Source: Kitasatospora sp. NBC_00458 (GTDB lineage: Bacteria > Actinomycetota > Actinomycetes > Streptomycetales > Streptomycetaceae). From it: a stretch of DNA of 64,000 nt. The DNA is taken from NCBI RefSeq assembly GCF_036013975.1, contig NZ_CP107904.1, positions 2,728,001-2,792,000 on the forward strand, in the 5' to 3' direction. A program made the translations under genes and the position numbers. Positions 13,626-14,803 of the stretch are shown here, piece after piece. Each line of letters starts with the position of its first letter. The stretch's first letter is position 1. The notes under the pieces were generated by a model, which saw only the letters and a list, made by a program, of their open reading frames with translations, searched no databases and was not told the origin of the DNA.

Positions 13626-14096
13626 TCAGCGGCGCTCGACCGTCCGCACCGGCTCGCCCGGGCGCCAGGAGCTGATCCGGACCGCGTCGCCCTCGACCGT
13701 GGTGTGCACGACCTGCTCCACCTCCAGCCTGAACGCCTGGTACGGGCCGGGCGGCGGCTCGGGGAGCTCGGCCTCGTAGGCGGCGCGTTCGGCCTCGCCG
13801 GTCACCTCGACGGCCCGGCCGGAGACCTTGGAGTCGCCGTCCGCGAGCGTCTCGTCGCTCGGGTTGCTGTGCAGCGCGAAGCGGGCGTCGCGCCGCAGGT
13901 CCAGGGCCTTGACCGCGCCGTCCATCGACCCGAGCATCAGGTCGGCCCCGATGAAGTCCACCTCGGTGCCGCTGACCCTCGGCGAGCCGTCCCGGCGGAG
14001 CGTCGCCAGGACGTGGTGCTTGTTCGCCTCGAACCGGGCCCGCACGGCGGGGGCGAGGTCCGGTGCCTCGTGCTCGAAATCCTGCCAGGTAGCCAT
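13626..14096 (-). CDS. Pyridoxamine 5'-phosphate oxidase-like (PPOX) protein
   Basis: 156 aa. The fold pattern VRARFEANKHHVLATLRRDG, SGTEVDFIG, GSMDGAVKALDLRRD, ARFALHS and KVSGRAVEV is that of split-barrel flavin or F420 binding proteins. Whether it uses FMN, F420 or heme cannot be told. The ATG at 14096 has no Shine-Dalgarno sequence but a PafBC-type promoter ending six bases upstream. It is divergent from the DUF1697 gene, with which it shares an inverted copy of the same promoter. Confidence 0.85.
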   Translation of the reverse strand: MATWQDFEHEAPDLAPAVRARFEANKHHVLATLRRDGSPRVSGTEVDFIGADLMLGSMDGAVKALDLRRDARFALHSNPSDETLADGDSKVSGRAVEVTGEAERAAYEAELPEPPPGPYQAFRLEVEQVVHTTVEGDAVRISSWRPGEPVRTVERR

Positions 14097-14125
14097 GGCG
14101 CCAGTCTGGCACCCGGTACCGACAG
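14097..14125 (-). promoter_or_regulatory. PafBC-type (RecA-independent DNA damage) promoter of the PPOX gene
   Basis: On the minus strand CTGTCGGTA (14125-14117), eight bases, then CAGACT (14108-14103), six bases, and the ATG. This matches the published actinobacterial motif TTGTCRGTG-N8-TAnnnT in seven of nine positions of the first box. The element is the inverted copy of that at 14214-14242. Confidence 0.6.
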
Positions 14126-14239
14126 TCGCCCGGGCGGGCGGGACGGGCTGGTGCGCCGCCGAGCCGCAGGTGCGCTGCGGCCGGGCGCGGCTCGGCGGGC
14201 GGGCGCGGCCGGGCTGTCGGTGCCGGGTGCCAGACTGGC
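14100..14239. repeat. 26-bp inverted repeat forming twin divergent promoters
   Basis: Arms 14100-14125 and 14214-14239 are reverse complements with one mismatch. Each arm carries the promoter of the gene it faces, so the PPOX and DUF1697 genes have nearly identical sequences upstream of their start codons. Confidence 0.9.
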
Positions 14240-14242
14240 CGC
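14214..14242 (+). promoter_or_regulatory. PafBC-type promoter of the DUF1697 gene
   Basis: CTGTCGGTG (14214-14222), N8, CAGACT (14231-14236), then six bases to GTG at 14243. Eight of nine positions match TTGTCRGTG and the spacing to the -10 is exactly eight. Confidence 0.65.
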
Positions 14243-14803
14243 GTGACCTCCACGACCACGTACATCGCCTTCCTGCGGGCCGTCAACGTCGGCGGAAGGA
14301 CGGTGCGGATGGAGCGGCTGCGCGCCCTCTTCACCGAACTCGGCCTGGACCGCGTCGGCTCCTACATCCAGAGCGGCAACGTCTTCTTCGCCGCCGACGA
14401 CCTCGACGGGGAGGGCCGTGCCGCGCTCACCGCCCGGATCGAGCAGCACCTCGCCGATTCGCTCGGCTACCCCGTGCCGGTGCTGCTGCGGACCGTCGAC
14501 GAGGTCGAGGCGGTGCTCGCCGCCGAGCCGTTCGCGGGCGTCGAGGTGACGCCGGACGTCCGGCTGACGGTGAACTTCCTCTCCGAGCCGCTGCCGGCCG
14601 ACTTCCCGGTCCCGTACACCTCCCCCAAGGGCGACTACGAGGTGATCGGGGCCGATGCCGGCACCGCCTACGTGGTGGTGCACCTGAAGGACGGCAAGTG
14701 GGTGACCAGCGGTTCGCTGTTCGGCAAGTCCTACGGCGGCACGGCGACTTCGCGCTTCCTGCACACCACCGTCAAGATCCTCGCGGCCGCCCGGAAGGCC
14801 TGA
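14243..14803 (+). CDS. DUF1697 family protein
   Basis: 186 aa with the DUF1697 signature YIAFLRAVNVGG, MERLRALFTELG and YIQSGNVFF at the N-terminus. The biochemical role of the family is unknown. The GTG start lies six bases downstream of a PafBC-type -10 element and lacks a Shine-Dalgarno sequence, so it is probably a leaderless message induced by DNA damage (inference). The next gene starts 27 bases downstream and may be co-transcribed. Confidence 0.9.
   Translation: MTSTTTYIAFLRAVNVGGRTVRMERLRALFTELGLDRVGSYIQSGNVFFAADDLDGEGRAALTARIEQHLADSLGYPVPVLLRTVDEVEAVLAAEPFAGVEVTPDVRLTVNFLSEPLPADFPVPYTSPKGDYEVIGADAGTAYVVVHLKDGKWVTSGSLFGKSYGGTATSRFLHTTVKILAAARKA

Follow-up and report, generated by a model that had tools for sequence, protein, structure and literature searches.

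Candidate back-to-back PafBC-type promoters between divergent PPOX and DUF1697 genes in Kitasatospora

The window, i.e. the whole stretch of 64,000 nucleotides from Kitasatospora sp. NBC_00458 analysed here, contains at 14097..14242 (no strand assigned) an intergenic region of 146 bp with two putative divergent promoters, which is exactly the gap between a PPOX and a DUF1697 gene delimited in the initial annotation. On the minus strand, 13626..14096 encodes a PPOX-fold protein of 156 aa (PNPOx_N, PF01243), which also matches the F420-dependent family TIGR03618 with a score below its cut-off, and on the plus strand, 14243..14803 encodes a DUF1697 protein of 186 aa (PF08002). By themselves, the two proteins provide no independent tie to DNA repair. 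The gap is bordered by the arms of a 26-bp inverted repeat, the left arm (14100..14125, minus strand) representing the putative PPOX promoter and the right arm (14214..14239, plus strand) that of DUF1697. The arms are 25/26 (96%) complementary and 88 nt apart, confirming the repeat with one mismatch described previously; it extends to 3 bases before each start codon, however, and it is the hexamer, not the repeat, that ends six bases away.

Oriented to its own gene, each arm reads CTGTCGGT(A/G)-N8-CAGACT. The left promoter consists of an upstream (-26) element CTGTCGGTA at 14117..14125, a TGC at 14109..14111 and the -10 hexamer CAGACT at 14103..14108 (all minus strand), located 6 nt before the ATG, while the right promoter has the upstream (-26) element CTGTCGGTG at 14214..14222, a TGC at 14228..14230 and CAGACT at 14231..14236 (all plus strand), 6 nt before a GTG. 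A TGC directly 5' of the hexamer constitutes an extended -10 element, and both were read from the sequence. The pattern (C/T)TGTCGGTR-N8-CAGACT, as originally noted, is exact in both arms. When YTGTCGGTR-N8-CAGACT is searched in the window allowing up to two mismatches, 2 matches are recovered, one per arm and both exact, as compared to 0.20 expected per shuffle and two matches in 1/100 shuffles, a post hoc test as the pattern is derived from the same two arms. A sigma-70 consensus promoter search of 14000-14350 returned none. LexA (SOS) operators are of the GAAC-N4-GTTC type, and neither GAAC nor GTTC is present in 14097-14242, by reading. A perfect 12-bp inverted repeat is also located mid-gap (14156-14167/14187-14198, with 19 nt between its arms), and is absent in the relatives L032-L034, again by reading.

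The arms resemble the RecA-NDp (P1, PafBC-dependent) promoters of actinobacteria, the consensus for LexA/RecA-independent damage genes of M. tuberculosis being given as tTGTCRgtg - 8 nt - TannnT (PMC5656591). Repair genes among those downstream and the presence of pafB and pafC are further points of likeness in the window's genome. Both arms match the capital positions TGTCR and have the 8-nt spacing to the -10; at the weak consensus positions both start with C, and the left arm ends with A. In CAGACT, A2 and T6 of TannnT match, whereas T1 does not, the latter being missing at 35/60 motif sites of the window's genome. These sites were obtained with YTGTCRGTR-N9-A-N3-T, which has 60 matches in the 8.0-Mb genome, while the reversed pattern has 1. 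With the spacer 1 base shorter there are 6 sites, and with a spacer two bases longer likewise 6, one of which is also correctly spaced. The RecA-NDp-type motif is real and spacing-specific in this genome. Homologues of PafB and PafC are encoded there by tandem genes, whose closest solved relatives are PafB and PafC (E-values of 4e-53 and 9e-50).

Many repair genes follow the motif. The first 10 downstream proteins scanned include RecA, SbcD, Lhr and two AlkZ-like glycosylases (3/10 without any family), and 10 more include a Fpg/Nei-like glycosylase, PolA, UDG, a UvrD-like helicase and an exonuclease/endonuclease-family protein (2/10 without family), where the proteins were hand-picked from the 60 sites, some for their repair-gene look, and so give no unbiased rate, and where downstream genes were assigned by mechanical rules that are wrong in places. 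UvrB is also encoded after a motif site. The proposed assignment to a PafBC-type motif thus appears largely right, in spacing, downstream genes and presence of pafB/pafC, with the reservation that CAGACT lacks the first T of TannnT. As a separate observation, two different AlkZ-like DNA glycosylase genes (L027 and L029) in G000, the window's genome, each have an ATG 6 or 7 nt past a motif site. A duplicate motif site with the same downstream frame is found at G000:C1:14398 and 65327, on opposite strands, about 51 kb apart and near the contig end.

The motif extends beyond this genome. TTGTCAGTG-N9-A-N3-T is present in 25/25 genomes of the genus, with 319 matches vs 3 reversed (summed), and YTGTCRGTG-N9-A-N3-T yields 1,473 matches vs 120 reversed (summed) in 20 chosen genomes from nine genera of the family, ten of which belong to a large genus (g10), probably Streptomyces, with 868 matches vs 62 reversed; as the reversed control lets codon usage vary, these family and genus ratios are rougher than the spacing controls. 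A previous initial search reports, in the accessible portion of that paper, that the M. smegmatis PafBC motif is not conserved in S. venezuelae (PMC9380542). In contrast to this remark, motif matches in these genomes of the family greatly outnumber those of the reversed control.

The place of the hexamers relative to the start codons indicates how transcription may begin. Among 59 distinct sites in the window's genome, an ATG lies 6-8 nt after the hexamer 13 times vs 1.57 expected per three offsets, an approximately eightfold excess, with the reservations that recA possibly does not begin at its ATG at +8 and that one of the 13 opens a 41-codon frame only, while GTG is found at this distance 4 times vs 3.44, without clear excess. 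This suggests that a share of PafBC-type genes may have leaderless mRNAs. Both window genes are of the short hexamer-to-codon kind, and the six bases between -10 and codon leave no room for a ribosome-binding site; hence, the mRNAs would be leaderless if the promoters are used. The predicted starts are 14096 for PPOX and 14243 for DUF1697. Initiation with the first base of the start codon, as anticipated in the initial annotation, fits the hexamer-to-codon distance of 6-7 nt.

The lack of T1 coincides with the extended -10. TG precedes the hexamer at 15/35 sites without T1 vs 1/25 with T1 in the window's genome (p 0.0008), and at 13/33 vs 1/25 when the two arms are left out (p 0.002). For the genus, at least 150 matches comprising 132 distinct words give 21/60 vs 3/72 (p 6e-6) with orthologues kept in; after harsh clustering, with words ending in CAGACT or CACACT also dropped, 3/20 vs 1/23 is not significant. 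As a side observation, the sites appear to fall into two classes of promoter: hexamers of the form TAnnnT mostly have no TG, whereas those with C, A or G at position 1 are more often preceded by TGN. In a clade with the hexamers TACACT/TAGACT, TG is present in 0/16 arms. L083, L098, L102 and L103, from one clade, have both arms of the TAnnnT class.

Sequence past the hexamer permits a different reading, in which a dedicated repressor binds the CCAG-A-CTGG dyad of each arm, so that the repeat provides two operators. In many of the group's genomes both arms indeed end in CASACTGG, and GG directly follows the hexamer in 12/59 sites of the window's genome, both arms among them. However, a dyad-breaking C occupies the third hexamer place in 15/45 left and 19/45 right arms, and the TACACT/TAGACT clade has no such dyad, rendering the operator reading highly unlikely.

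Turning to the Kitasatospora group, DUF1697 is found in 69/70 genomes of the genus, G022 being without a DUF1697 match, and a divergent PPOX gene lies beside it in 48/69 fetched stretches. A hexamer ending in ACT precedes DUF1697 in 61/69 and PPOX in 45/48 cases. All 63 (DUF1697) and 47 (PPOX) hexamers found, searched at 5-9 nt, are positioned 6 or 7 nt from the start. Start codons were taken from the in-frame candidates close to the aligned start according to the best promoter score, a choice that favours the motif. Allowing up to two mismatches, the upstream element is retained in 37/48 genomes for DUF1697, 41/48 for PPOX and 31/48 for both, and allowing up to one mismatch in 30/48, 33/48 and 22/48, respectively.

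These counts bear on the possibility that the housekeeping sigma factor uses the arms mainly as constitutive promoters of leaderless mRNAs, relying on the extended -10, with -26 elements of little weight. Both the -10 and its spacing from the start codon do persist despite a decayed -26 in L036, L046, L053, L072, L073 and L079 (with PPOX), and likewise in L089, L091, L092, L095, L096, L100 and L104 (without PPOX), but the -26 retention at up to two mismatches in most genomes, together with the genome-wide specificity of the spacing, argues against such promoters, and we consider them improbable here. The DUF1697 -26 element is degraded in 11/48 genomes with PPOX, and is kept in 6/21 genomes without vs 37/48 with PPOX (Fisher p 0.0003), or 5/21 vs 30/48 at up to one mismatch (p 0.004). 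A link between PPOX absence and DUF1697 -26 loss was considered and rejected, 5 independent pairs on supported branches being not significant. By reading, apparent PPOX remnants are found beside DUF1697 in L045 and L052. L181 (G034) has a stop inside PPOX, and L200, from G022, has an apparent leftover DUF1697 start facing PPOX.

Arms of 26 bp flanking 88 nt also resemble a short insertion, and the repeat could in principle mark the ends of a small mobile element as its terminal inverted repeat, or form a hairpin or attenuator. Yet, among the 60 genome sites none besides the arms has their spacer and hexamer (at that search stringency), and in relatives the arms stay beside the start codons while the aligned start-to-start gap ranges from 31 to 165 nt. 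A hairpin is countered by the arms being untranscribed if the mRNAs are leaderless, and by an Rfam search of 13900-14400, which returned nothing at gathering threshold. We attach next to no probability to either of these.

Why, then, do the arms look alike? Among the 59 distinct motif sites of the genome, the window's two arms form the closest of 1,711 pairs (14/15 free positions), and their likeness exceeds what the genome-wide motif gives. Beyond the published motif, the arms share GGTGCCASACTGG in many genomes. Left and right arms were compared in 45/48 genomes with both anchors (L097, L099 and L101 were dropped), 30 of which have a gap of at least 70 nt. Left-right identity within vs between genomes is 0.779 vs 0.763 for the 8-nt spacer (p 0.10), 0.748 vs 0.717 for the upstream 9-mer (p 0.036), 0.70 vs 0.55 for the third hexamer base (p 0.066), 0.507 vs 0.447 for the 10 nt upstream (p 0.006) and 0.442 vs 0.404 for the 20 nt upstream (p 0.016), with p values from shuffles that ignore relatedness. 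The window's own arm identity, 27 over 35 columns, is equalled or exceeded by 228/870 between-genome pairs, and on the DUF1697 tree of 45 genomes no position displays significant co-change of the arms. Repeats of at least 26 nt with up to one mismatch occur in 5/32 cases within genomes (L055, L090, L078, L033 and the window) vs 28/992 between. Permutation inside two coarse groups yields p 0.005 for their count and 0.0003 for the mean run, while the comparison of own arms to those of the three nearest relatives, 17 to 14, is not significant.

Steady gene conversion or a recent duplication of the arms was consequently rejected, the within-genome identity being barely above the between-genome identity and the co-change not significant. 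This bears on the suggestion in the initial annotation that a promoter had been duplicated as an inverted repeat, an interpretation that is only partly supported overall: duplication in the window is unproven, with left and right arms nearly as alike between genomes as within them, and in 6/16 loci of other genera PPOX has such a promoter with no DUF1697 gene alongside. An ancient copying of the promoter at the base of the group is possible. Nor is a divergent pair of such sites unique, sbcD having one in the same genome. In this second pair (G000:C1:7333716-7333833, L132), flanked on one side by sbcD, the first bases of the two sites lie 95 bp apart and the spacers differ. The likeness of the arms mainly reflects shared constraint, and the arms probably read as an inverted repeat because both promoters are held to the same tight consensus. 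The excess of long repeats within genomes hints at occasional re-symmetrising, which would be at most sporadic; repeat arms are known to be homogenised by template switching (PMC8604942, PMC7202029).

Loci outside the genus inform on the order of gain. For DUF1697, 20 relatives were fetched of 21 listed, and these 20, from other genera, have no PPOX in the stretch, nor, on the gene's strand, any motif match (up to two mismatches allowed) whose end lies 50 nt or less from the start. The 20 PPOX loci fetched comprise four from the window's genus (L199, L200, L216 and L217) and 16 from other genera. Of the latter, L201 and L209 have the exact motif 6 nt before the ATG, and L198, L202, L204 and L213 a two-mismatch motif at 6-7 nt; all six are without DUF1697 in the fetched stretch. 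In the other 10/16, including all six of g10, no motif with up to two mismatches is found on the gene's strand. As 6/16 PPOX loci of other genera carry the motif without DUF1697, and the DUF1697 relatives there are without it, the PPOX promoter is probably the older, and the DUF1697 promoter would have been gained in the lineage of the genus.

Based on these analyses, we propose that the gap likely holds two separate, back-to-back RecA-NDp-type promoters, for PPOX and DUF1697, which would be driven by PafBC, leaderless and co-induced, with that of PPOX probably older. Upon DNA damage, PafBC loaded with single-stranded DNA would allow the housekeeping polymerase to use the -26 element (CTGTCGGTR) and the extended -10 (TGC-CAGACT), following the PafBC mechanism as outlined in the accessible sections of PMC11804915. 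The first base of each start codon would then be the first one transcribed, yielding two leaderless, jointly induced mRNAs. With 147 bp between the predicted start points, both promoters could be occupied simultaneously. The DUF1697 promoter would have been gained beside the older PPOX promoter in the Kitasatospora lineage. Damage co-induction of PPOX and DUF1697, as previously put forward, stands as a sound prediction. If correct, two genes of unknown role join the likely streptomycete DNA-damage regulon, which would have a clear spacing-specific motif in the family, and some of its mRNAs may be leaderless. Among the matches listed from the open-access literature, available in part, there is no report of DUF1697 in the damage response.

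Several relatives have shorter gaps. In L069, L071, L080 and L088 only 38-40 nt separate the genes, and the divergent promoters interlock, while in L057 and L058 (51 nt) a single central box is the upstream element for both genes. L071 (G050) has a perfect palindrome of 46 nt that spans from start codon to start codon and holds both promoters; its close relatives L069 and L080, in one supported clade, share its left half (L080 with a single base changed) but have a different right half. L071, which lies outside the window, is the clearest putative case of re-symmetrising. We read the overlap as possible because TGTCAG and TGCCAG both conform to the palindromic CTGNCAG. Several overlapping forms have G or A in the upstream element at the consensus T, and PafBC action there is putative.

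Tentatively, and with considerable doubt, PafBC-type promoters might become two-way, the -26 TGTCAG and the extended -10 TGCCAG both being versions of the palindromic box CTGNCAG. Each box in L069, L071, L080 and L088 would serve one gene as -26 and the opposite gene as -10, and the lone central box of L057 and L058 would serve both genes as -26. Polymerases that exclude each other would switch on two damage-inducible leaderless genes, and template switching between the arms would now and then restore symmetry, as may have occurred in L071. In the window, the overlapping core elements shared by both directions that define a symmetry-based bidirectional promoter of the E. coli type are absent, the arms being 88 nt apart. 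If the proposal of two PafBC-type promoters is right, the group supplies natural promoters that range from separate through overlapping to a perfect palindrome, in which to study how an activator-dependent promoter turns two-way. Divergent or overlapping PafBC promoters are not reported among the listed open-access matches, as far as their available text extends.

Compared to known systems, the separate promoters proposed for the window resemble RecA-NDp promoters and are expected to work in the same way, PafBC-dependence being the strict criterion for that class; the window differs in having two in mirror image at one gene pair, an extended -10, C for T at the first base, and a -10 directly before the start codon. 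Symmetry also lets one stretch drive divergent transcription in the bidirectional promoters of E. coli, as described in the excerpted text of PMC12825309. The window promoters are, in contrast, separate, and it is the overlapping forms of the relatives that should likewise show polymerase competition, although their shared boxes would be the -26 and extended -10 of an activator-dependent promoter. In Caulobacter, a WYL-domain damage regulator activated by single-stranded DNA, DriD, similarly acts at a two-way promoter; in the available portion of that work, DriD is a homodimer, binds DNA without polymerase and activates one side (PMC12340889). Unlike this DriD target, as far as described there, each side in the window has its own PafBC-type element. 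A RecA-NDp-type promoter in a streptomycete is that of the macrodomain gene SCO6735 of Streptomyces coelicolor, which according to the accessible text is UV-inducible and has a single such promoter, as opposed to the pair in the window (PMC5087735). In the window's genome, L114 has a weak, below-cut-off DarG match and a single motif site, and our guess is that it is the counterpart of SCO6735.
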